Shown here: positions 30,057 to 64,000 of the stretch, one piece after another | How positions within the stretch are numbered: the stretch's first letter is position 1 | Layout of the letters: every line of letters starts with the position of its first letter | NCBI RefSeq assembly: GCF_022808695.1 | Contig: NZ_JAKZKW010000001.1 | Coordinates: 124,001-188,000, forward strand | Direction of reading: 5' to 3' | Origin: Fundidesulfovibrio soli | GTDB lineage: Bacteria > Desulfobacterota > Desulfovibrionia > Desulfovibrionales > Desulfovibrionaceae | DNA length: 64,000 nt | Program-made: the position numbers and the translations under genes | The notes under the pieces: generated by a model | Databases searched by the model: none | What the model was told of the DNA's origin: nothing | What the model saw: the letters and a program-made list of their open reading frames with translations, nothing else

Positions 30057-30143
30057 GGTTGGATAAGGGATGGACAGAAGGTCGGCGGACCTGCGGCCAG
30101 ATTCCGGGTCAAGCCCGTGCAGCTATCCAACCCTATCCAACCC
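30057..30143. repeat. Repeated TATCCAACC elements before the integrase gene
   Basis: Two tandem copies of CTATCCAACC (30123-30142) lie just upstream of the integrase start, and an inverted copy GGTTGGATAAGGG lies at 30057-30069. Short repeats between an att site and its integrase gene are typical of arm-type integrase or excisionase sites, or of an operator that autoregulates the integrase. Confidence 0.55.
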
Positions 30144-30153
30144 CGAGGGCGTC

Positions 30154-31353
30154 ATGACGATCCAGCGGACCAAGAGCAGCCACCCTGGCGTGCGCTACCG
30201 TGAGCACAAGACCCGACTCCACAACGGCAAGCCCGATCGGTACTTCACCATATACTACAAGCTCAAGGGCAAGTTCTATGAAGAGGCGCTTGGGTGGGCA
30301 TCCCAAGGCTGGACAGAAGCCAAGGCCGCCATTGAGCGAAACAAGCTGAAGCAGGCTCACGCGACTGGCGAAGGCCCACAGACTTTGAACGAGAAGCGTG
30401 ACCTGGCAGCTGAACGAAAAGCTGAAAAAGAAGCCCAAAAAGTGCGTGAAGCCAAAGAAGCGCTCACTTTCACCAAGTTCTTCACGGAGACTTATGCGCC
30501 TCATTCGCTCACGTCGAAATCAAAAAAATCTACCGACAGGGAAGATCAACTATTCAGACTTTGGATATCACCAGTTATCGGCGATTTACCTTTCAAGAAA
30601 ATTTCAGCGCTTCAATTGAACCAAATTCGATCAAACATGCTCGAAAAAGGAATTGCCCCTAGGTCCGTAACGTATGCTTTCGCTGTGATTCGACAAGTAT
30701 TCAACTACGCCAAGTTTTGCCACATGTCGGAATTAGATTCGCCGACTCAAAGAATTCAAATGCCAAAATTTGACAATCAAAGGAAACGGTTCTTGTCTCC
30801 AGATGAGGCGGCCATCCTGCTAAAAGCATTAAAAGAAAAAAGTGAACAAGTCTACGAAATATCTATTATGAGTTTTGAATGCGGGCTTCGAGCCAATGAA
30901 ATATTCTCTCTCAAATGGAAAGATATTGATCTTGAAAATGAAATAATTACCATATTTGATTCAAAAAATTCAAAGTCTCGACCAGCATTCATGACGGAAA
31001 ATGTCAAAAATATGCTGCTGTCGAAAAAACAAGGTGACAAGAACGACTTGATTTTTGTGGGCAGAGAAGGTGTAAAAATCAGTCAAATTTCGAGAACCTT
31101 CCGAATTGTAGTCGATGAGCTTGGATTAAACAATGGAGTTTCAGATCCTCGGCAGAAACTCGTATTTCACACACTTAGGCATACATACGCCTCTTGGCTT
31201 GCTATGGATGGAACTGATATTTATATGGTCAAAGAACTCATGGGCCATTCTAGTCTAGCAATGACTCAAAGGTATGCCCACCTTGGCAATGGAGCATTGA
31301 GAAAAGCAGCAAAAAAGCTTGACGGAAAAATTGACTTGGATATGATTAATTAA
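30154..31353 (+). CDS. int: Tyrosine recombinase (integrase) of the island
   Basis: The ATG at 30154 gives 399 residues. The N-terminal part is a DUF4102-free arm-binding region with long charged helices (about 60-130), then a SAM-like core-binding domain (about 130-230), then the catalytic domain. The catalytic residues are visible: Arg in CGLRANEIFSLKW, HTLRHTYASW (HxxR), and MGHSSLAMTQRYAH (His and nucleophile Tyr). It lies 200 bp from the truncated tRNA-Arg, reads away from it, and is the natural enzyme for integration there. Codon use becomes visibly more AT-rich within this gene than in the chromosome to the left. Confidence 0.95.
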   Translation: MTIQRTKSSHPGVRYREHKTRLHNGKPDRYFTIYYKLKGKFYEEALGWASQGWTEAKAAIERNKLKQAHATGEGPQTLNEKRDLAAERKAEKEAQKVREAKEALTFTKFFTETYAPHSLTSKSKKSTDREDQLFRLWISPVIGDLPFKKISALQLNQIRSNMLEKGIAPRSVTYAFAVIRQVFNYAKFCHMSELDSPTQRIQMPKFDNQRKRFLSPDEAAILLKALKEKSEQVYEISIMSFECGLRANEIFSLKWKDIDLENEIITIFDSKNSKSRPAFMTENVKNMLLSKKQGDKNDLIFVGREGVKISQISRTFRIVVDELGLNNGVSDPRQKLVFHTLRHTYASWLAMDGTDIYMVKELMGHSSLAMTQRYAHLGNGALRKAAKKLDGKIDLDMIN

Positions 31354-32254: not shown

Positions 32255-32403
32255 GGAGTGGCCCTAGTCATGCGTGGCGTTTCGCTGCGGTAGAACATGC
32301 TCCCTCCATTACAGCTCAATATGAGCAGCCGTATAATGTGACTACGTCACATCACACGGATGCTCACATGAGATGCAGCTAGAAAGTTCGGTAGGGCCAC
32401 TCC
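32255..32403 (+). ncRNA. Retron msr-msd RNA gene
   Basis: The two ends are a perfect 12-bp inverted repeat, GGAGTGGCCCTA (a1, 32255-32266) and TAGGGCCACTCC (a2, 32392-32403), followed by a T-run. The base after a1 is a G, the expected position of the branching guanosine. Inside, an msr-like hairpin GTGGCG-TTT-CGCTGC lies just downstream. The msd part folds as one long hairpin: CTCA/TGAG, GAGCA/TGCTC, CCGT/ACGG and ATGTGAC/GTCACAT in register from 32315 to 32372 around a TAC loop. Order, a1/a2 placement and the position 17 bp before the reverse transcriptase start all match retrons such as Ec86. The RNA should prime and template a small branched RNA-DNA. Confidence 0.9.
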
Positions 32404-32420
32404 TTTTTTTTGGGGGTTAA

Positions 32421-33905
32421 ATGAGCGATCTTGAACAGTTGCTAGTTGGGCTTGATGCTGAGTCTGCTAGTGGCAGGATGCACGCCATTCAACGCTCTAC
32501 TGCTTACGACAAACCCACGCGATCGGCATTCCTACTTAAAGCATTAGAGCATTGGGACCGTAAGGTTAGAGAAAAGTCAGCAAAAATCCTTCTCAAAATA
32601 GGTGGCGATCTCGAGTTGGCAGCTGTATGCAGCGCAGTTGACTCCAGGAAAGTCCCTCTTTTGAGACTGATTCCTTGGCTAGCTAGACGCAATCATGCTT
32701 TGACAACAAGGACCATCTATAATCTTACTCAACACTCACACAAGGTTATTTCTGAAGCTGCATCGAAGTATCTGATCAAAATGGATACGACAGAGGCGCT
32801 ATTTTATAGATGGTCTAAACAGTCTAGAATTCCAAAAAAGTTGGCAGCGCAAATTGAGGCGTGCGCCTGCGAGAGAGTAGCTTCAGTACTCAGCGACATA
32901 CCTGTTTCAGTTATTCATACGTTAAGGGGTAAGTTTCTTCGCTACCCTCTGCTTAAGAAATATTACCATGATAAATACAGCGACAGCCGTCCTCAAAGCT
33001 CCAAAGAAACAGTATCTCCAAAGGCACCAAAAGTTCAGAGCGAGTACGTACAGTCCTGGAATAAGCTAGGGATTGATTGGCGAATTGCAGGCTGGATTGT
33101 CAGAAACTGGTCTGATTTGGATGATGTTGGTTATTTTGAGTTTAAAATCCCCAAGAAGAACGGCACTGAACGCATCATTTCAGCGCCTGTTACGCCTTTA
33201 AAAATTGCTCAAAGGGTTGTTTTGGACAAAATACTGTCAACGGTCCCACAGCACGACGCCTGCCATGGGTTTCGGAAAAATTTTTCAATCATAACCAATG
33301 CCACTAAACACACGGGGAAAGACGTTGTTATACGAATAGACCTTAAAGATTTTTTTCCTTCGATCAAACCTGCTAGAATAGCTGGAATTTTCCGTTCACT
33401 CGGGTTCAGTGACTTTGAAATCCGTTTTCTAACCCGTGTTACCACCAGAGGTGGAGGCCTGCCGCAAGGCGCACCAAGTAGTCCGTGCTTGGCAAACATT
33501 GTAGCCCGGAGGCTTGATAGTAGGCTTAACGGTTTGGCTGCTTCAGTTGGTGGCACATATACTCGCTATGCAGACGATCTAATTATTAGCGGGCACAAGA
33601 ATGTTGTTAGTATTTTGCCTGCTGTAAAAAGTATTATTCAAGAAGAAGATTTCGGCATTGCCAGCGAAAAGCTTCGTATAGCGCGAAAGGGTGCGCAGCA
33701 GAAGGTTACTGGCCTTATTGTTAATCAATGCGTTAACGCACCAAGAGAATTGAGGCGAAAGTTGCGAGCAGTTTTTCATAAACAATCCAAAGGAGAAGTT
33801 CCTTACTGGGGTAATAAGCCAATGTCTGAGTCTCAAATGCGCGGGTATCAGGCTTTTTTGTCGAGCATTGAAAAATCAAAAACAGACCAGCATGAAAAAC
33901 TTTAG
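32421..33905 (+). CDS. Retron reverse transcriptase with N-terminal helical extension
   Basis: A 494-residue protein. The catalytic core (about 205-450) has RT motifs in order: IPKKNGTERIISAP, IDLKDFFPSI (first Asp 307), GLPQGAPSSPCLAN (346-359), YADD (383-386) and VTGLIVN. The retron-specific marks are present: NATKH (293-297, NAxxH of region X) and VTG (429-431, region Y). Before the core lie about 190 residues of short amphipathic helices in pairs (FLLKALEHWDRKVREKSAKILL, LARRNHALTTRTIY, HKVISEAASKYLI) that look like HEAT/ARM-type repeats; most small retron RTs lack this. An msr-msd RNA gene lies directly upstream and a methyltransferase-like gene starts 6 bp downstream. Retrons act in phage defence, with the msDNA-RT complex controlling a toxic or effector partner. 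Confidence 0.93.
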   Translation: MSDLEQLLVGLDAESASGRMHAIQRSTAYDKPTRSAFLLKALEHWDRKVREKSAKILLKIGGDLELAAVCSAVDSRKVPLLRLIPWLARRNHALTTRTIYNLTQHSHKVISEAASKYLIKMDTTEALFYRWSKQSRIPKKLAAQIEACACERVASVLSDIPVSVIHTLRGKFLRYPLLKKYYHDKYSDSRPQSSKETVSPKAPKVQSEYVQSWNKLGIDWRIAGWIVRNWSDLDDVGYFEFKIPKKNGTERIISAPVTPLKIAQRVVLDKILSTVPQHDACHGFRKNFSIITNATKHTGKDVVIRIDLKDFFPSIKPARIAGIFRSLGFSDFEIRFLTRVTTRGGGLPQGAPSSPCLANIVARRLDSRLNGLAASVGGTYTRYADDLIISGHKNVVSILPAVKSIIQEEDFGIASEKLRIARKGAQQKVTGLIVNQCVNAPRELRRKLRAVFHKQSKGEVPYWGNKPMSESQMRGYQAFLSSIEKSKTDQHEKL

Positions 33906-33911
33906 CTGCTT

Positions 33912-34742
33912 GTGAAAAAGCAAATCCCGTTCAAAAAAAACGTCATCCATGGCCACAGCTGCGAAAGCATGGCCGAATTGCCTGACGGAGCTATAGACTT
34001 AATATTTGCAGGGCCTCCCTACGGGTCTTTAATCAACTATTCAAGCTATGCAGCTGGTGAGCAGCACTACAAAGCTCACTCAACAGATCTTCCTCAATAT
34101 ATTACTTCATTTCAGACATGGTTTTCTGAATGTTTTCGTGTATTAAGAGCTGGTCGCTATTGCATCGTCAATCTGGGTACGATCAGAGAGAATCACAAAA
34201 CCATTGCTTTGCCATTTTATGCTGTGTCTTGGTTAGAAGAACTGGGATTTTCGTTTCAATTTGAGATTGTATGGGACAAAATCGTAGGTGGTAGGCATGA
34301 AGCTCGAAACTTTCTTGCCCATCCTTTTCCTGGAAGGTTCACTCCGAACAATCGGGTTGAATATCTCTTGTTTTTCAAAAAAAATCCAAGGAAGGCATTT
34401 GCCCCCAGAAGTAAGTTTTATGATGCAAACATAATCCCTTTGACTGATTTATTTAAGCGCGAAATTGCAAACAATGTTTGGCATGTACATCCTGCAACAA
34501 AAAGATCTTCGCCAGACGTTTCGCACCCATGCCCATTTCCACCGGAAATTCCAGAGCGCATTATTACATACTTTTCATTTCCACAAGAGACAGTTCTAGA
34601 TCCATTTATGGGGTCAGGGTCGACTGCTATTGCAGCCAAAAAGCTTGGGAGGTATTACGTTGGATATGAGACAGAGGATAGATTCAGGATTGACGCAGAG
34701 AGATTGATCGCGAAATACAAACGTAAATATATGGCGATTTGA
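33912..34742 (+). CDS. DNA methyltransferase-like protein with altered motif IV (GPPY)
   Basis: A 276-residue protein from a GTG that lies 6 bp after the RT stop, so the two are translated together. It has the beta-group N6-adenine/N4-cytosine methyltransferase layout: motif IV region first (LIFAGPPYGS, residues 31-39), then NRVEYLLFFKKNP, and the SAM-binding motif LDPFMGSGST (229-238) near the C-terminus. In active enzymes motif IV is DPPY or SPPY; here the first residue is Gly (GGG codon). The rest of the fold, including the FxGxG SAM loop, is intact. It may bind DNA and SAM without efficient methyl transfer, or the family may tolerate Gly. No restriction nuclease is adjacent, so a retron accessory or effector role is the contextual guess. 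Confidence 0.8.
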   Translation: MKKQIPFKKNVIHGHSCESMAELPDGAIDLIFAGPPYGSLINYSSYAAGEQHYKAHSTDLPQYITSFQTWFSECFRVLRAGRYCIVNLGTIRENHKTIALPFYAVSWLEELGFSFQFEIVWDKIVGGRHEARNFLAHPFPGRFTPNNRVEYLLFFKKNPRKAFAPRSKFYDANIIPLTDLFKREIANNVWHVHPATKRSSPDVSHPCPFPPEIPERIITYFSFPQETVLDPFMGSGSTAIAAKKLGRYYVGYETEDRFRIDAERLIAKYKRKYMAI

Positions 34743-34837: not shown

Positions 34838-35293
34838 GTGAAACTGCCATTGAGTCACAGTAGAATTGTAAGTGCTTTCGCGCATGAGTTAGCATCTAGA
34901 ATTTCGCAGGGAGTTATAAGACATTTGTGCCGCCTTGATCACGCGCTATATGCCGAAGACAGCCCGCTTAAGTCTATATGGGATGAGATTTGTTTTCAGG
35001 AGCAGAGTGAAAGATCCATAGACTGGGAAGTACTTGATGACATTGTCTGCGGGATTCTGGCGGGTTATGTTGATGAATTATCAAGGCATGAACGAGAAGC
35101 GCTTTGGGTGCAAACAGATGCAAGTGATGACTGGGATGAAGACCAATTTGACGCGGACAGTTATGATTTGGTTTCGGACGATGATATTATCAACTACATA
35201 GCCAGAGAGTATGTTTACGCTAAGGCCAGCAATTGGACAAACAGTCGCATTCGGGAATTCATCGATAGGTACCATTCCATAGATTGGGAATGA
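34838..35293 (+). CDS. Acidic protein of unknown function, retron-proximal
   Basis: A 151-residue protein from a GTG, 95 bp after the methyltransferase-like gene. The N-terminal 60 residues are helical, the region 90-130 is very acidic (DDWDEDQFDADSYDLVSDDD), and the end is again helical with aromatic residues. No family is recognised. A strongly acidic small protein beside a DNA-acting system could be a DNA mimic or an inhibitor, but that is speculation from composition and position only. Confidence 0.55.
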   Translation: MKLPLSHSRIVSAFAHELASRISQGVIRHLCRLDHALYAEDSPLKSIWDEICFQEQSERSIDWEVLDDIVCGILAGYVDELSRHEREALWVQTDASDDWDEDQFDADSYDLVSDDDIINYIAREYVYAKASNWTNSRIREFIDRYHSIDWE

Positions 35294-35658: not shown

Positions 35659-36834
35659 TCAAATTGCGTTTAGTCTTTTTAACGAGGAAAGGTCGTTGTT
35701 CTGCCATACGCTAACACTCCCGATTGTTTTTCGTTCATCTAGCATTGCTGGAATATTTTGCAGGTATTCCGGCAAGAAAACGAGTGGGAATATTGAAAGT
35801 GACTTATCCCCATGCTCAGAAGAGACGTAAACTACAAATATACCTTCAGATTCAAAAATATCAATATCTTCAGTGACATTGTCTTTGTAGTATGTTGTTG
35901 ACACTTTGCATATTGTTTCCTTTCTTGTGAGAGATCTGTAGATGGATTCTGCTACGACTGGTGAGTTGATAAGCTTGGCAGATGGGGATTCTAAAAAAGC
36001 ATTGTAGTCAAAGAACGAAAGAATGTCAGATGGCAGAGGGGTCCCTTTAAGCGACTTTGACAGGACGGTGAGAACAAGTCTTTCCTTGTTTTTGAACCCG
36101 TCAACGAAGTTTAATAGAAAGGACTTGGCGAGCGACAGCTTTAGCCCACTTGCAATTGCGAACTTAGAAAAATCGATCAATGATTTTGGCGTTTGAAACC
36201 TGTCGACAGATATAAAGAACCCATCTTCAGACAGAAGTTTTGAAATTCCATCGAAATAGTCACTAGTGGGTGCCACAGATTCACATGGATTGGGCTGGAT
36301 TACCTCGTGATAGACCAGGGACGCAAATATCATGTCATACGATCCAGGCTTATTGTTTTTTGAAAAGCTATCAAAAGTATCGTTTAGAAATGCAATGTTT
36401 GTCACTTTCAAGTCTGAAGCTCGCCTGCGAGCTAGATCAATGCCCTCTTTACATCTGTCAATCCCGATTCCACTTGATCCCTTAAGTTCACGGGCTAAAA
36501 AACATGAAATTAATCCGTTGTCGCAGCCAATCTCAAGGAATTTGCGGCAGTTGGTAAAGTTTTCATTTATGATCCACTGGAAAAAAGGCTCTAGGCGTGG
36601 ACAGTCAAATGCAGCAGCAATGTCGTTGGCAAATTCAAGTGTAGTATTTTTTATTGGATATGGATCGCAACAAGTGTTGTTGTCGACACGTGCATCTACG
36701 CACTTTAAAAAATCAACAGCCAAAGCTCCATGCTTTTTGATCAATAACTTTTCAAATTTATTCTTGTTTTTGTGTATATCAATCTTGCAATCCGAAAAGA
36801 AACTTTTGATTTTTACCGAAGTAGTTTTATGCAT
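35659..36834 (-). CDS. Class I SAM-dependent methyltransferase
   Basis: A 391-residue AT-rich gene. The middle domain (about 95-215) has the SAM-binding motif I FLEIGCDNGLISCFLA, the acidic motif II end GIGIDRCKEGIDLARRRA and the later SYDMIFASLVYHEV. An N-terminal helical part (1-90) and a C-terminal part of about 170 residues flank it; the C-terminal part has no recognised domain. The substrate is unknown; the motif set resembles small-molecule or protein methyltransferases more than DNA methyltransferases (no DPPY). It stands alone between the retron and the methylase-helicase operon. Confidence 0.75.
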   Translation of the reverse strand: MHKTTSVKIKSFFSDCKIDIHKNKNKFEKLLIKKHGALAVDFLKCVDARVDNNTCCDPYPIKNTTLEFANDIAAAFDCPRLEPFFQWIINENFTNCRKFLEIGCDNGLISCFLARELKGSSGIGIDRCKEGIDLARRRASDLKVTNIAFLNDTFDSFSKNNKPGSYDMIFASLVYHEVIQPNPCESVAPTSDYFDGISKLLSEDGFFISVDRFQTPKSLIDFSKFAIASGLKLSLAKSFLLNFVDGFKNKERLVLTVLSKSLKGTPLPSDILSFFDYNAFLESPSAKLINSPVVAESIYRSLTRKETICKVSTTYYKDNVTEDIDIFESEGIFVVYVSSEHGDKSLSIFPLVFLPEYLQNIPAMLDERKTIGSVSVWQNNDLSSLKRLNAI

Positions 36835-36952: not shown

Positions 36953-39739
36953 CTACCATCCCGTGGACAGCAACTCCCTCATGCTAACGGCATTGAGAAC
37001 CGAGGCGCAGGTTTCCCAGTCCGCATCCTCCACCTTGCTATACTTCACGTCAAAGGGATTGCGAGTGGCCGTTGTTCGATCAATTAGCTGACGGGCGGAT
37101 TGCTCATTGTGTAGAGCCACTTCAACCCACACATCTTCAAGGGTGTCTGGTATTTGGCCAAAGAGGTCGTGAATGGCCTCTAGGCGTTCAGCCAATACCC
37201 GGTGGACCCGGTCTTCTACGGATTCCCTGTAGCGAAGATTAGCAATCCAGACTTCATCCCGAGCTTGCCCAATGCGCTGAATACGGCCCTTGCGTTGCTC
37301 CAGGCGTGTCGGATTCCAGGGCAAGTCGATGTTGATAAGCGTACCAAGGCGTTGCAGGTTGAGACCTTCTGACGCTGCATCCGTACCAAGTAGCAATTTG
37401 ATGTCGGCGGTCCGGACGCGCTCCTTGAGAAGGTTTCGGTCGCAACGCTCAAAGCGCCCGCCCCTCCAGAACCCTGAACGATTGCTTCCAGCATAGAGGC
37501 CAATATCCATACCCTGAAAGGCCTCCATCCTGGCCAGTTCGCTGCCTATCCACCATACCGTGTCATAATACTGGGAAAACAGGATGCACCCCAGGTCAAT
37601 CCAGGGCCTGTTCAAACCGTGTCTCCGACCCAGCAAATAGTCAGTTACGGCTTCGAGCTTGGGGTCGGCAGTACCACCCTGACGCAAGAGGTCCAAGCAG
37701 CGTTGCAAAGATGCACGTTCGGCATCAGTGAACTGCTTGAACTCGCTGACCGTGTCTTGAGAGGCTGTCAATCCCGATTCTTCTTCTACCTCATCGTCAT
37801 CTTCATCCAAAACTAAATCAGGGTCTTGACCGAGAAGCTTCATGACCGTCCGCCGACCTGCCTCCATCGAACTCCCAAGGCGGCGCAGAAGCAACGTCTT
37901 GAAGAAACCAGCCCCTCGTACGCGTTGTTGGAGCAAAGAACAAAACGCCTCGGCCTCTTGATAAGCTTCAAGTAAATATCCCCCCAGGAGTAGCCCGCCA
38001 TCGTCTTCCTCGCCAAAAAGGCGCACGCTGACTTTGGGGAGGTAATAACTTCCTGTGGCTGGATTGATGGTAGATTCCAGATAGGCCCGAGTACGGCGTA
38101 CAATGCAGCGTAGTAACGGATTGAAGCGCTGGCCGTAATCAGGCAGCAGTTCATTGCCAAGCTGAACATTACGCAAGGCCGGAGGAAGCTGGTCAAATGT
38201 TTCGGGCGGGAATTGCCAACGAGCGTCGTCTGCCTCGATATAGTTTCGGATGCGTCTGAAGGCTGAATCTTCCTCTTTCGCTGGCATGGGATCGCGCACA
38301 AATTCCCATCCTTGACGCAAGTCTTCCGTGGGCACGGCGATTTGGCCGGTGGCGACATCAAGGCATAGGCTAGGCCTAAACCAGGGGCTACTCTGGGTTC
38401 GCCCCCCCAGTACACCGTCGTTGCCTTGAGCCAGAATGTGCAGCAAATCCCAGGCTTCAACAGGGTGCAACTGCACTGGTGTGGCTGTAGCCAGAAGCAT
38501 GCTCTTGGTCTTGAGCCCTACCTGGCGCAAGAAATCCATCAGCTTGTTGGGTTCGGCTCGCTCGTTCACATCTTCAGGACCGGCGTCCACCTTGGGAACC
38601 TTCCGCCTTCTGGCACGATGAGCCTCGTCCACGATTACGCAGGTATACTTCCGGCTCAAGAGTTGATTGACGGCCTCGGCCATGCCGCGCACAACGAGAC
38701 CCTGTGAGACCAAGCCAATACGGCGCGGGCATTTGCCCAGGCTCTTGGTGCCTTCGGATGGATACTCCAATTCGTTTTCATCCACCCAAGCCCGGCCGTT
38801 CCAACGCGCAGAGGGGAGCTGCAAGAAATCCATCAATTCGCCCTGCCATTGCTGAAGAAGTGGCTTGGGTGCGAGTATCAGGATTGGCCCTCCGCCTGGA
38901 TCGTCCACAGCCATGAGCAGGGCAGCCATGGCCAGTTGGATCGTCTTGCCCAAGCCGACCTGATCCGCCAGAACCAAGCGTGCTCCGCCTAGACGATGTC
39001 GTTCAAGAGCAAGGCGTGCAAAATACTTCTGATGCGGCCACAATCCTTGCTCCTGTCGGTAAATCGGCGTTTCCACAGCCACCGCAGCCGCCGCTTCGGT
39101 GGCGTCCACGGCCTGTAATTCCTGTGGTTCAACGACTGTGCGAGATACGATGCGTTTAACGTCCTGGGCAATGAAGGGGCAGCAGGCCAAATCAACTGCA
39201 CGGGGATCATTCCATAGCGCCAGAAACTCTTCCTGAACCCAGGCCATCGTTTCCGGGGTGTCGTCCTCCCAGAGAAGCTCGTAATTAAGTTTCCAGGCGG
39301 AGAGGCTTTCATTGACGCTGCCCAAAAAAGCCGTGCCCGAACCATCCGCATAGCGGATCAACCCTGCCTTGCCGTGAATCAAGCCAAAGGCTGAATCAGG
39401 CAAAACGCGAATTTCGATTTTCTGATTGGTCAGAGCGGCATAAAGTTCACGATACCGTGGCAGAGCCAAGGGTGGCGCATCTTCAGGACGTCCCGAGCAC
39501 CAACTACGGCGCAAAGCTGCCTGAGCCGCTGAGGCCGTGATCATGTCATGGGGATCAAGGTCGGAATTGCAGACTATACGGACTTTGCCGCTCACGTTGG
39601 CCAAGGCTTCCCCGGCCACCTCAAAGAGGCTTGAGCGGAAATACCCAGCTATGCGGTCGTAAGACACCGCTCCGGTGAGGCGTTGAGCCAGGACCGTCTG
39701 ATGTAGACGACCACGGCGGCTGGAATGATGGCGCAGCAT
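36953..39739 (-). CDS. PLD - SNF2/DEAH helicase of a DNA-modification defence operon
   Basis: I place the start at 39739, where TGATG makes a 1-base overlap with the stop of the upstream methylase, giving 928 residues. The N-terminal domain is a phospholipase D-type nuclease fold (HGK at 122-124 and GSVNES at 140-145). The helicase follows with Walker A ADQVGLGKT (258-266), Walker B VIVDEAH (DEAH 371-374), motif III ATATPVQ, and the C-terminal lobe with GTDAASEGLNLQ and RKGRIQRIGQ. This PLD plus Swi2/Snf2 arrangement is found in several anti-phage operons. It is the last gene of a four-gene unit. Confidence 0.9.
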   Translation of the reverse strand: MLRHHSSRRGRLHQTVLAQRLTGAVSYDRIAGYFRSSLFEVAGEALANVSGKVRIVCNSDLDPHDMITASAAQAALRRSWCSGRPEDAPPLALPRYRELYAALTNQKIEIRVLPDSAFGLIHGKAGLIRYADGSGTAFLGSVNESLSAWKLNYELLWEDDTPETMAWVQEEFLALWNDPRAVDLACCPFIAQDVKRIVSRTVVEPQELQAVDATEAAAAVAVETPIYRQEQGLWPHQKYFARLALERHRLGGARLVLADQVGLGKTIQLAMAALLMAVDDPGGGPILILAPKPLLQQWQGELMDFLQLPSARWNGRAWVDENELEYPSEGTKSLGKCPRRIGLVSQGLVVRGMAEAVNQLLSRKYTCVIVDEAHRARRRKVPKVDAGPEDVNERAEPNKLMDFLRQVGLKTKSMLLATATPVQLHPVEAWDLLHILAQGNDGVLGGRTQSSPWFRPSLCLDVATGQIAVPTEDLRQGWEFVRDPMPAKEEDSAFRRIRNYIEADDARWQFPPETFDQLPPALRNVQLGNELLPDYGQRFNPLLRCIVRRTRAYLESTINPATGSYYLPKVSVRLFGEEDDGGLLLGGYLLEAYQEAEAFCSLLQQRVRGAGFFKTLLLRRLGSSMEAGRRTVMKLLGQDPDLVLDEDDDEVEEESGLTASQDTVSEFKQFTDAERASLQRCLDLLRQGGTADPKLEAVTDYLLGRRHGLNRPWIDLGCILFSQYYDTVWWIGSELARMEAFQGMDIGLYAGSNRSGFWRGGRFERCDRNLLKERVRTADIKLLLGTDAASEGLNLQRLGTLINIDLPWNPTRLEQRKGRIQRIGQARDEVWIANLRYRESVEDRVHRVLAERLEAIHDLFGQIPDTLEDVWVEVALHNEQSARQLIDRTTATRNPFDVKYSKVEDADWETCASVLNAVSMRELLSTGW

Positions 39740-42700
39740 CAGGCTTCGTCGTTGCGCAGACGCCCAGCTAGGATGCGGGCAGACTCTGAGTCGGGCGTCC
39801 ATTCATCCATTCCTTGGGAATTTGCCAGTGTCGACAACCATTCCAAAAGTCCCAGGAACAGCTCTCGCTTGCTCCAGTAGCTCTGGCCATACGTGTCTCG
39901 TAGGTATTGCCTGCCTGATTCGGGGTTAAGGTCTGCCCGAGTGGTTTCGCGCATGGCAAAAAGCAGGTGACGCAAGGGTGAAAAGGCGAATGGGTGGGGC
40001 GCGCCAGTCGCTGCTCGGCCACGCCGAGAGGGAAGTGTTTGGGCATTGCCTTCGTTGGCCACGGCCAATAGAGACGCCCCCAGGCCGCTTGCCGTATGCA
40101 TGCGTGTGCCGTTGGCTTTGTCCGTCTTGAGCAGAGGGCGAATGTCAGCCACACCAAAGCCTCGAGCCAATTCTTCGTACATACCTTTGCGACGTTCTCC
40201 CCGACTTTCGATGTCCAAAGCGCGCATATAGTAGCGTTCGACCAAGGAGAGGTCTCGCCATACTCCGTGTAGGCCGCGTGGCACCAGGATTGAACAGGCG
40301 ATTTCCAAGGCACGTTCGATGACCTTCTGAAAATCGCTCTTTTCGTTCCGGTCACGCTGCGCAAAGACTTCGTGTTCCACGTCCCGACCGTCCAACGTCG
40401 AGTAACGTGTTAGTACCTTGAGGGCGGCGGCATAGGCGGCCAACTGATAGTCAGCGTCGTTAAAATTGGGCTCCCCGGCCTCATCCAAGGACTGCATGAA
40501 GGCAATCTGATTTTGAACCTCGTCTTCCACCAGGGGGGAAACCTCGTCCATGAAACCGGGTTCTGATTCCAAGCGTTTGCGCAGAACCAAGCAAACAGTC
40601 CCTTGTACGTAATCGCCTTTTTTTAAGCCCACAGCGTCCGTCTCGGTGCTAATGGTCCATGCGGCTGTGGCCGTAAGCCCGGCTGCCCAAAGAATCATGC
40701 CCAGATTAGCCCAGACTCCGGGGTTTTTGTGAGTGAACATGACCAACTGCAGGCCATTATCCGGCATACACCGGGCCAAGTTGCGATAGATATCGACCAT
40801 TGACCGCCGAAAATCTTCTCCGTCCCCGCGCACGGCCAGTTCAGCTCGGGCATCAGGTACCCAATTCGGAAACACTCGGGCCATCTGTGTGTCATACCAA
40901 GCTAAGAAGAAGTCGCCCAACTCGTGATAGTTTATCGCGTCGGCGTAGGGGGGGTCCGTTACCCAAAGTTCGCATGGACTATTTATGTCGCGAGCATCTG
41001 TCACTGATACCTTGCCCACATTTCCAAAAGAAATTGGATGGGCACCGTCAAGAAGCTGAAACGTCGGCGCTAACTTCGAGAGGGCCCGCCCTGCGTAACT
41101 CACTAATGTATTCAATGCTTGATTAGTAAAAGTTTGATTGCCTTTTTCGTTACTTCCATGCCACATCCAGGCGCAGCTACGAGAATCCCAGTCGGCAATC
41201 CTGCCCAAGCCCAACAAGCAAGCAACATGCATTTCCTGCGAAGATGCAATGCGACTTGAAATCTCTGCGACTAGACCATGCGTCAGCAACTGTCTTGGTG
41301 TATAAAAGTGGTGCCAATAACTCCACCCGCGCTCCCGAATAGGCTGCTCAGTGTTGTAGCCACTCGAAATAGCCTTAGAGGGGATGAAGCCTTTTCTTTG
41401 CCACTGTGCAAAACGTTCCCTCAGAAGGATCAGCACCTTAGCTTCACGCTCCAGATCTGTGTGGTCAGGAGCAGCATAACGGCGGACCTCCTTGGTCCTT
41501 CCGGTGATTTCATCCTCTGTCTCTTGAACCCAGCGGATGCAGTATAACCGCTCTTGAAAAACGTCGTCTGGACGTGGCGCAAGATCTTCATTCGTCCAGC
41601 GGCGCAGACCCTCTGGGCCGCGCAGAGCTTCTAGGGACCAGGAACGATTAGAGTCAAAGGGGTCCACCACCCGGCTACTGACTATGGTTGCTCCTTTCCC
41701 GTCCTTGTACGCCTTCAATTCAGCACTGGATACGTATTGAATCTCAGGCTGGAGCCTGTCCGAACCGGGAACGCGCCGCCATGTGACCACTACCTTGGAC
41801 TTTTCGCCAATCAGCCAACTAGGAGCGAGAGGTATGTAATAGTCACAACCTTCTGGTTTAACCTCCACGCAATAAAGATAGGCGTCTGCCCGTTCGCCCT
41901 GGTCGTTGTGCTCGATACCCCAGTCGGTGATCTGTTTATCTGCTTCGCGTAGAACCTTGGCCTGTACGCGCATTACCTTTTCTTGCATTTCGCGGCCACC
42001 GCCCAGCAGATTCAGGTCGGCCCAAGTCAAGAGGGCGGCCACCGGGTTCAGGTCGTACCCAAAAGCTTCACATCCGATACGCGCTGCCTCAAAGGGGATA
42101 GACCCGCCTCCGCAAAAACAATCCCCTACCCGTGGGGGGTGTCCGAATTGCCGCACTCCCAGTTCCCGCACTAGGCCAGGAAGGCTCGAGGCCGTAGTGC
42201 CAAGATGTGCGTTGATTTCGGACCAGGTCTCTACCTTGGGGCCGACGATATTTTCTGGACGCTCACAATGCCTAATCCGTTCTGCATAAGGGAGGGCGTC
42301 AAATTCTTCCCGGCTAGGGATTGGACGCCGCCTTTGGTTGTCCAGCTCATTTCTATCCACATCACCAAGGGAGTCCCAAATCAGTGCGCAAATCTCTTCT
42401 TTTTCTTCGTCGCTCAGGCCCCGTTTAAAACCTCGCGCGCCAAAATACTCTTCCTGAACGTCGGAGTTCGCCGCTTCCCGCCAGGCAACGGCAGGAATCT
42501 CACCTTTGCAACGCAGCCAGACCCCATCGTCGTCCATGGTCAATATCTTCAGGAAAATTTCGCGGTCTTTCTTGGGGTTGTCCGAGGCGGGCATGAGCAT
42601 CCCCAGGATGGCCGCACGAACCAGGATCAACGGCTTGCGTCCCCACCATTTGCCTAGACGAGTAAGGGTCTGGCCATTGTTAGCTTTGCGTTCCTTGTAG

Positions 42701-42753
42701 GCTTCGGCGGATAGGCGAGCAATCGGGAACTGGTTCTCAATGAATACGGACAT
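39739..42753 (-). CDS. DUF1156 DNA methyltransferase
   Basis: A 1004-residue protein. The start has the DUF1156 signature (KWWGRKPLILVRAAILG, about 36-52). SAM motif I is GDCFCGGGS (210-218) and motif IV is TDPPYADAINYHE (DPPY 600-603), so this is an adenine-type methylase with a large insertion between the motifs, typical of this family. Unlike the retron-linked gene, motif IV is canonical. It lies 9 bp after the DUF3780 gene and overlaps the helicase gene by one base. Proteins of this type are the methylase component of modification-based defence operons with a DUF499 ATPase. Confidence 0.9.
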   Translation of the reverse strand: MSVFIENQFPIARLSAEAYKERKANNGQTLTRLGKWWGRKPLILVRAAILGMLMPASDNPKKDREIFLKILTMDDDGVWLRCKGEIPAVAWREAANSDVQEEYFGARGFKRGLSDEEKEEICALIWDSLGDVDRNELDNQRRRPIPSREEFDALPYAERIRHCERPENIVGPKVETWSEINAHLGTTASSLPGLVRELGVRQFGHPPRVGDCFCGGGSIPFEAARIGCEAFGYDLNPVAALLTWADLNLLGGGREMQEKVMRVQAKVLREADKQITDWGIEHNDQGERADAYLYCVEVKPEGCDYYIPLAPSWLIGEKSKVVVTWRRVPGSDRLQPEIQYVSSAELKAYKDGKGATIVSSRVVDPFDSNRSWSLEALRGPEGLRRWTNEDLAPRPDDVFQERLYCIRWVQETEDEITGRTKEVRRYAAPDHTDLEREAKVLILLRERFAQWQRKGFIPSKAISSGYNTEQPIRERGWSYWHHFYTPRQLLTHGLVAEISSRIASSQEMHVACLLGLGRIADWDSRSCAWMWHGSNEKGNQTFTNQALNTLVSYAGRALSKLAPTFQLLDGAHPISFGNVGKVSVTDARDINSPCELWVTDPPYADAINYHELGDFFLAWYDTQMARVFPNWVPDARAELAVRGDGEDFRRSMVDIYRNLARCMPDNGLQLVMFTHKNPGVWANLGMILWAAGLTATAAWTISTETDAVGLKKGDYVQGTVCLVLRKRLESEPGFMDEVSPLVEDEVQNQIAFMQSLDEAGEPNFNDADYQLAAYAAALKVLTRYSTLDGRDVEHEVFAQRDRNEKSDFQKVIERALEIACSILVPRGLHGVWRDLSLVERYYMRALDIESRGERRKGMYEELARGFGVADIRPLLKTDKANGTRMHTASGLGASLLAVANEGNAQTLPSRRGRAATGAPHPFAFSPLRHLLFAMRETTRADLNPESGRQYLRDTYGQSYWSKRELFLGLLEWLSTLANSQGMDEWTPDSESARILAGRLRNDEA

Positions 42754-62886: not shown

Positions 62887-64000
62887 CTATTGCACCGGGC
62901 CTGTTGACGGATCCTGTTGCGACGAAGTCGACGGAGAAACGGACGTTGGCTGGGAGGTTAGTTCAAGGCATGTTATTCCTTGCCAGAAACGGATGCCGTC
63001 TGATTTTTGCTCCTTGAAGCCCTGCTGGCGGATCAGGATACCGAACTTTTTCATCGAGACAGGTTCGATGCAGGCCCTGCTGGCCCACTTCTGGTATTCG
63101 GAGAAGAGCAGGCCTTTGGGGACGCGTTTGGACTTGTCCCGCTCGCATTCGTCCTCGATAAAGCTGCCTATGGTGTCCATGACGGAACGGAAGTCGCGGG
63201 AAGCGTCACGGACGCATGCAGGTTCAGTAAGCTTCCCATTGGCGTGCCAGTGTTTGAAACCTCGGACAGCCCAGGCGAGAATTCCGGCTTTCTCCTGTTT
63301 CAACTCTTCGGCCAAGCCTTTGTTGACCTCGTCCTCGCTCACGGAAAGGTCGAAGGGAATGATCCTGATGCGCCGGTAGATGCCGTCGTCCGCACCACTG
63401 ACCTCCGGGAGGGTATTGACCGCCAGGAAGAACTTCGCCTGGGGGACGAACTCGAAGTATTCACGACCAATAAAGCGGGCAGTCATTTTGTCGCCGCCGG
63501 TCAAGCGTTTTACCAGGGCCTCATCCAGGTGCTTCCCGGTATTGATCTCCACCGCCGAAACGAACCTAGCTCCACGCAAACGTGCAATGTCGTTGCGGAT
63601 GGCCCTTGATTCGGATTTCATAAGGGTATGAGCCGGAGTGGTCTTGCCGTAGTCGCCCATGACCTCCAGGATGACGTCCACGAGCGTGGACTTGCCGTTC
63701 TTCCCCTTGCCGGTGAACACGATCATCTGCTGTTCTTGGACGGAGCCGGATAGGGCGTAGCCAAGATTTTCCTGGATGTAGTTGGCGAGGTCTTTCTGGC
63801 CGCACGTCACTTGGTCGATGAACTTTTCCCAGCCCGGACACGTGGCCTCGGGATCATACTTCACGCGGACATACTGGGTGATCAGGTCTTCAGGGGTGCT
63901 TGGACGGCGGATGCCGGTCACCAAGTCGAGGGTGCCGTTTTGTACGCCCAGCAGGTACGGATTGTTGTCGAGCTCATCTTGGGAGACACTGATCTTCGGG
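62887..64000 (-). CDS. P4/D5-family primase-helicase, N-terminus beyond window edge
   Basis: The frame stays open through the right edge (...NPYLLGVQNGTLDLVTGIRR reads in frame before the first visible ATG-type codon), so the protein is partial at its N-terminus; about 371 residues are visible. The D5_N-type region leads into a superfamily 3 helicase with Walker A GKGKNGKST, Walker B-like AVEINTG, motif C FFLAVNTLPE and an arginine finger at YRRIRIIPF, then the D5 C-terminal winged-helix-like part. This family replicates phage P4-like satellites and plasmids. It supports the view that the island has its own replication functions. Confidence 0.88.
   Translation of the reverse strand, partial: PKISVSQDELDNNPYLLGVQNGTLDLVTGIRRPSTPEDLITQYVRVKYDPEATCPGWEKFIDQVTCGQKDLANYIQENLGYALSGSVQEQQMIVFTGKGKNGKSTLVDVILEVMGDYGKTTPAHTLMKSESRAIRNDIARLRGARFVSAVEINTGKHLDEALVKRLTGGDKMTARFIGREYFEFVPQAKFFLAVNTLPEVSGADDGIYRRIRIIPFDLSVSEDEVNKGLAEELKQEKAGILAWAVRGFKHWHANGKLTEPACVRDASRDFRSVMDTIGSFIEDECERDKSKRVPKGLLFSEYQKWASRACIEPVSMKKFGILIRQQGFKEQKSDGIRFWQGITCLELTSQPTSVSPSTSSQQDPSTGPVQ

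Follow-up and report, generated by a model that had tools for sequence, protein, structure and literature searches.

The locus analyzed here raises two questions: whether it is a retron and, if so, which of its proteins could act as the effector. Retrons are bacterial elements that reverse-transcribe a portion of their own RNA into a small DNA, in most cases as a protection from viruses. A 2026 preprint describes retrons as a reverse transcriptase (RT), an RNA, and an effector, with effectors that are varied (PMC13405049). In the window, the whole 64-kb stretch of Fundidesulfovibrio soli DNA that was analyzed, a preliminary description had marked positions 32255-33905 as a complete retron, consisting of an msr-msd RNA gene and a retron-type RT. 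The parts placed inside this extent were found where they had been described, but the extent stops before a DNA methyltransferase (MTase) gene that seemingly belongs to the same unit. The inventory missed the two more unusual parts, a conserved gene for an MTase and a stretch that extends the RT at its N terminus. The features of the locus are as follows.

32255-32403, plus strand: whole msr-msd RNA gene, with a counterpart in the closest relative
32255-32266, plus strand: a1 arm, GGAGTGGCCCTA, the perfect complement of 32392-32403
32273-32289, plus strand: msr hairpin from the RNA fold, with 7 pairs, the loop TTT, and the core GGCGTTTCGC
32315-32372, plus strand: msd hairpin from the RNA fold and the antisense-strand DNA fold, template of the predicted msDNA
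32392-32403, plus strand: a2 arm, TAGGGCCACTCC, pairing perfectly with a1 over 12 bp
32404-32411, plus strand: run of eight T (T8) abutting a2, read from the sequence
32421-33905, plus strand: retron RT, 494 aa, an intact open reading frame (ORF) with RT_XIII and RVT_1 matches
33912-34742, plus strand: beta-class amino DNA MTase, 276 aa, starting with GTG 6 nt behind the RT stop codon (N6_N4_Mtase, 4.3e-37)
34838-35293, plus strand: 151-aa ORF, 95 nt 3' of the MTase gene, a candidate further gene of the unit

The RNA gene and the reverse transcriptase

The preliminary description had named a perfect 12-bp a1/a2 repeat, a G directly after a1 (32267), a T run after a2, and an RT beginning 17 bp further on, and all four are present in the window. 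When the 330 nt 5' of the RT gene were dinucleotide-shuffled 400 times, no perfect inverted pair of at least 12 bp occurred; the maximum was 11 bp (mean 7.2), and 10 of the 400 shuffles reached 10 bp. Perfect 12-bp pairs spanning 100-300 nt were found at five places in the 64-kb window, the retron a1/a2 included, so that length alone is not unique to these arms, and it is the distance of 17 nt between the end of a2 and the ATG of the retron RT (32421) that sets them apart.

The msr hairpin with its GGCGTTTCGC core and the long msd hairpin, both described earlier, were recovered by folding. The RNA gene, whose folding had been suggested as a check, folded at -62.0 kcal/mol compared to a shuffle mean of -43.0 kcal/mol (z -4.72), and none of 200 shuffles was as low. 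For 32301-32391 folded as antisense DNA, the form expected of msDNA, z was -4.90, again with none of 200 shuffles reaching it. For the msr hairpin, 21 of 21 cells in an alignment of three sequences were paired and one pair was changed on both sides; however, 162 of 500 column shuffles did equally well, and this covariation therefore adds little. In a comparison with known RNA families, also proposed earlier, the Rfam search gave no match at the gathering score and only microRNA matches below it. The T8 run is possibly the end of a short RNA ahead of the RT gene. A sigma-70 scan directly 5' of a1 found no promoter-like site.

The RT domain (~237-490) is preceded by an N-terminal extension (~1-235, about 230 residues) that is tentatively helical and HEAT-like. 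Its PADLOC match was RT_XIII (5.7e-89, 297 bits), covering the RT core only, and its Pfam match was RVT_1 (1.4e-22). The best solved match by sequence was the RT of retron Ec86 (1.6e-53), which also came first in a fold search that returned RT matches only. Residues N293-A-x-x-H297, Y383-A-D-D386, and V429-T-G431 are present, the first and last of which had been pointed out before; NAxxH, YADD, and VTG are motifs of retron RTs.

With these motifs, the closest solved structure, and an RNA gene followed by the RT gene, the locus resembles Ec86 (Eco1, type II-A), to whose order it had been likened from the start. The effector of Ec86 is nucleoside deoxyribosyltransferase-like, and no match to such a gene, a mark of type II-A, was found among the neighbors of the RT. 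The effector of Ec86 is reported to deplete NAD (PMC12409349), whereas the window has an amino-MTase gene and an RT with an N-terminal extension.

Residues 5-82 of this extension matched HEAT_2 at 21.0 bits, under the cut-off of 27.7, and the extension had no match to PADLOC models at E values up to 5. Family searches, PADLOC among them, found no enzymatic signature in it. Two structure predictions showed consecutive helices in the N-terminal part, both at low confidence (mean pLDDT of 59.6 and 56.8). On these models and the faint profile match, no stronger name than HEAT-like seems justified for the extension.

The closest relative and type XIII retrons

The closest relative of the locus was found through a search of the phylum with the RT_XIII model, which matched 7 of 395 genomes at 1e-60. 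It lies on contig JAGOOG010000002.1 (locus L052; genome G415, contig 53) of a metagenome-assembled genome from another class of the phylum. Its RT has 451 aa and is 41% identical overall to that of the window, while the N-terminal parts of the two are clearly alike over ~48 residues only, HWDRK included (BLASTP 1e-5), and the relative's part had no HEAT match. At the same place 5' of the RT, the relative has the arms AGAAGGGCAGTCGGT and ACCGACTGTCCTTCT, which pair over 15 bp with one G-U and score 36.5 compared to a shuffle maximum of 29.5. The RNA counterpart (L052 4282-4453) is 172 nt long and folds with a z of -7.13; its msr hairpin has the same GGCGTTTCGC core, its msd hairpin is longer than that of the window, and the string AGAACAT is common to the two RNA genes.

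The arm sequences differ between the window and the relative yet pair in each, as selection on pairing predicts, and these differing but complementary arms, together with the shuffles, are the evidence for a predicted RNA gene. The G directly after a1 did not carry over, the relative having an A there, so its branch point may sit slightly inside. No T run like the T8 of the window follows the relative's a2.

Could the locus instead be a decayed or non-retron RT beside a chance inverted repeat? The missing Rfam match would fit this. However, the RT is an open frame of 494 aa with all motifs, the a1/a2 pair was absent from 400 shuffles, and the relative's different arms, at the same place, beat their own shuffles, which makes such a coincidence extremely improbable. 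Consistent with the retron reading of the preliminary description, the retron-type RT core, an RNA architecture beyond the shuffles, and the relative's own a1/a2 indicate that the locus is very probably a retron.

We scanned the 330 nt 5' of the RT at 39 RT loci, the window included, and found an upstream inverted pair that beat all 20 mononucleotide shuffles in the window and in 13 of the 38 others. Two of the 13 are unsure, since L059 has little upstream sequence and the pair of L058 lies far from the start. The expectation that related RTs have an a1/a2-flanked RNA was therefore borne out for these 13 and not for the remaining 25; some RTs have another gene in front, and the RNA may lie beyond 330 nt, which would account for such scan failures. 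At two other Desulfobacterota loci (L034 3846-5767 and L035 5101-7309), the RT is followed by a gene that looks by eye like a nucleoside phosphorylase/nucleosidase, with a signal peptide. It is possibly another conserved retron partner.

Type XIII retrons (RT_XIII with SWIM_XIII, WGR_XIII, and HEAT-ARM_XIII) are the nearest known type by RT model, and it can be asked whether the locus is a member that has lost its helper genes and gained an MTase gene by chance. Of the PADLOC models, RT_XIII scored highest with both RTs (297 bits for the window and 324 bits for the relative). The msr core GGCGTTTCGC is also that of the type XIII control, a retron of Methylobacterium bullatum (L024) with a 12-bp a1/a2 that includes one G-U, and type XIII has a helical-repeat protein where the window RT has a HEAT-like stretch. 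However, the control scored 584 bits over profile positions 10-433, with WGR_XIII and SWIM_XIII genes adjoining its RT, while the HEAT-like part of the window is fused to the RT, has no HEAT-ARM match, and matches no PADLOC model. Among the PADLOC matches listed for nine proteins at 30.0-42.8 kb, there was none to SWIM_XIII, WGR_XIII, or HEAT-ARM_XIII, and the window has an MTase gene. In a tree of the 39 RT domains, the window and the relative formed a pair (support 100/99) separate from that of L024 and L059 (99/94), with the sister order of the two pairs left unresolved. We consider a reduced type XIII retron very unlikely. Membership of type XIII was rejected, the RT being near by score but in a separate clade and without the partner genes among the matches listed. 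The RT of the control (L024 3473-5281) has a C-terminal extension that appears by eye to be membrane-spanning.

The methyltransferase gene and its setting

The MTase gene follows the RT gene by 6 nt in the relative as in the window, in two classes of the phylum, and the relative's MTase (297 aa) is 49% identical to that of the window. A set of predicted RNA gene, retron RT with an extension, and MTase gene 6 nt behind is thus kept in one distant relative. Given that the RTs are 41% and the MTases 49% identical, the pairing appears to be old. The relative has a third gene that overlaps the MTase end and encodes a DUF1848 protein (L033 3943-4740), matching PADLOC RTasDUF1848 (kind DRT) at 2.7e-27. 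It resembles that system in this gene, whereas none was seen among the window genes examined; a literature search on DUF1848 with reverse transcriptase found no paper.

A profile built from the two MTases, which matches both of its sources by construction, hit 3 of 395 genomes of the phylum at 1e-45 (both sources with E below 1e-170, and a third genome at 2.4e-46); in two further classes, it hit 1 of 55 genomes at 5.5e-45 and none of 257 at 1e-50. An MTase homologue (1e-3) lay beside one of 38 distinct RT loci (47 locus files, many with only ~1.5 kb of flank), and that one was the relative itself. Conversely, no RT was found in the flanks of ten loci with more distant MTases. Pattern scans of contigs reach close relatives only: two scans of genome contigs gave 0 and 7 RT loci (L052 and six other retrons), and six scans of viral contigs gave no RT relative, one of them yielding eight distant MTases. 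Among plasmids, 394 records matched the RT, none with a site that spans 80% of its length, and 2074 matched the MTase, each at less than 60% identity, as did 552 phages. The RT search hit 21 of 348 genomes in the window's class, with a best score after the window's own of 151 bits. In the relative's class, the RT profile hit 2 of 42 genomes, namely the relative and one contig-edge RT that groups with type XIII.

The surroundings bear out the mobile-element setting proposed earlier. An integrase gene lies at 30070-31353, and the G+C content steps from 0.575 to 0.46 at the integrase (~30 kb), staying at 0.42-0.57 over 29700-64000, down from about 0.6. Within the window, no clear long direct repeat was found for the other end of the low-G+C stretch. 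A phage-type DNA primase/helicase gene at 62887-63924 (phrog_6088, 8e-105) suggests phage or plasmid parts further right.

The 151-aa ORF behind the MTase gene had no match in PADLOC, Pfam, NCBIfam, or PHROGs; outside its own genome, a weak match (4e-11) turned up in just one of the 347 genomes searched in the class, and the ORF is not conserved in the relative. Facing the retron from the minus strand is a gene for a 391-aa SAM-dependent methyltransferase (35659-36834; Methyltransf_31, weak PADLOC mad2 match), of which no counterpart was seen beside the relative's RT. At 36953-42753, a PLD-domain helicase and a DUF1156 protein form a named anti-phage pair, both above NCBIfam cut-offs. This adjacent pair places the retron in a defence island, and a defence role for the locus is reasonable by neighborhood.

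Alternatively, the MTase could be a solitary methylase of the defence island hitchhiking behind the retron, with the effector being the RT's own N-terminal domain or an unrecognized gene. Solitary MTases often occur in islands, further defence genes adjoin here, and fused effectors are known (the RT-Toprim, RT-TIR, and RT-protease models of PADLOC). However, the order and spacing of the MTase gene are kept across two classes, the MTase is otherwise rare among the genomes sampled in the phylum, and the N-terminal domain of the RT has no enzymatic signature, which leaves hitchhiking unlikely. From the conserved arrangement at the two loci, the MTase is probably a functional partner of the retron.

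The MTase shares its fold family, motif order, and SAM motif with solitary and type II beta-class amino-MTases. Its closest solved chain was 2zie, a putative modification methylase of T. thermophilus (1.3e-32), its motifs run in the beta-class order IV to I, and the SAM motif is kept as DPFMGSG. It differs from them in its position behind a retron RT, in having no recognized restriction gene beside it in the window or in the relative genome, and in motif IV, which reads GPPY in both retron-linked MTases and not DPPY or SPPY. We compared motif IV at 22 PF01555 loci from 21 related genomes, one of them the window's own; among the other 21, D or S precedes PP in 19, and two had no motif readable by the pattern used. 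D or S was also found in the four viral loci where the motif could be read and in three solved chains among the matches listed. Motif IV is given as DPPY or SPPY for MTases of the beta group (PMC2890505), and in another MTase, an N4C-MTase (4mC), changing SPPY to APPA is reported to have abolished activity (PMC8885841). With GPPY outside the usual forms and the APPA mutant inactive, it is plausible that methyl transfer by the two retron-linked MTases is reduced or lost, and the enzyme may have little or no activity.

A possible mechanism and its meaning

In the retrons described so far, the effector protein is reported to be held in check within a complex with RT and msDNA, and to be released by phage enzymes that alter msDNA, methylases among them (PMC12409349, PMC12548924). 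Following this general logic of an effector held by RT and msDNA, we read the third gene, the MTase, as the effector. The RT would prime at the G just after a1 and copy the msd into branched msDNA. The MTase-like protein would then be silenced by RT and msDNA, possibly docked on the helical extension, until phage interference with the msDNA released it. The freed protein might act on DNA and halt growth or phage replication. A phage N6-MTase alone is reported to be toxic to E. coli when expressed (PMC12548924), and by analogy an MTase set free might be toxic, although GPPY argues for altered chemistry. Because the catalytic motif reads GPPY, ordinary methylation may matter less to the action of the protein than base flipping or DNA binding that depends on SAM. 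We give a tripartite retron with the MTase-like protein as the predicted effector, based on two loci, a little less than an even chance.

A bolder proposal is that the msDNA-RT complex controls an MTase-fold protein that lacks the catalytic residue usually found in motif IV and would be either a SAM-dependent DNA-binding effector or a reader of msDNA methylation; this would define a new retron type. This is tentative, and we hold it to be rather less likely.

The MTase could also be a modifier or guard of msDNA: by methylating or masking a site of the msd duplex, it would keep the complex resting or armed, while the effector would be the RT N-terminal domain or an unlinked protein. A phage methylase is reported to activate Ec86 through msDNA methylation (PMC12409349), a GATC methylase to trigger Retron-Asa1 and Retron-Squ1 (PMC12548924), and the SAM motif of the MTase is retained. 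However, both copies have a changed motif IV, and there is no other conserved effector gene at both loci. A comparison by eye found no convincing methylation site common to the two msd stems. A modifying role is distinctly unlikely, and the MTase-like protein as the effector is the reading we carry forward.

The 2026 preprint reports sixteen retron subtypes, with effectors that include ATPase, cold-shock, HNH, HEPN, and membrane proteins (PMC13405049). A literature search for a retron with a DNA methyltransferase partner, with the main classification papers outside its scope, gave no such pairing among the matches listed, and a DNA methyltransferase would be an unusual retron partner. Methylation of msDNA is a reported trigger of several retrons (PMC12409349, PMC12548924). 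A functional pairing would represent a new partner class, and the link to methylation would then be part of the retron. The locus is compact, with ~2.5 kb for the RNA gene, RT, and MTase, and the change in motif IV offers a sharp test of whether an enzyme with GPPY still methylates or whether the fold has been turned into a binding device.
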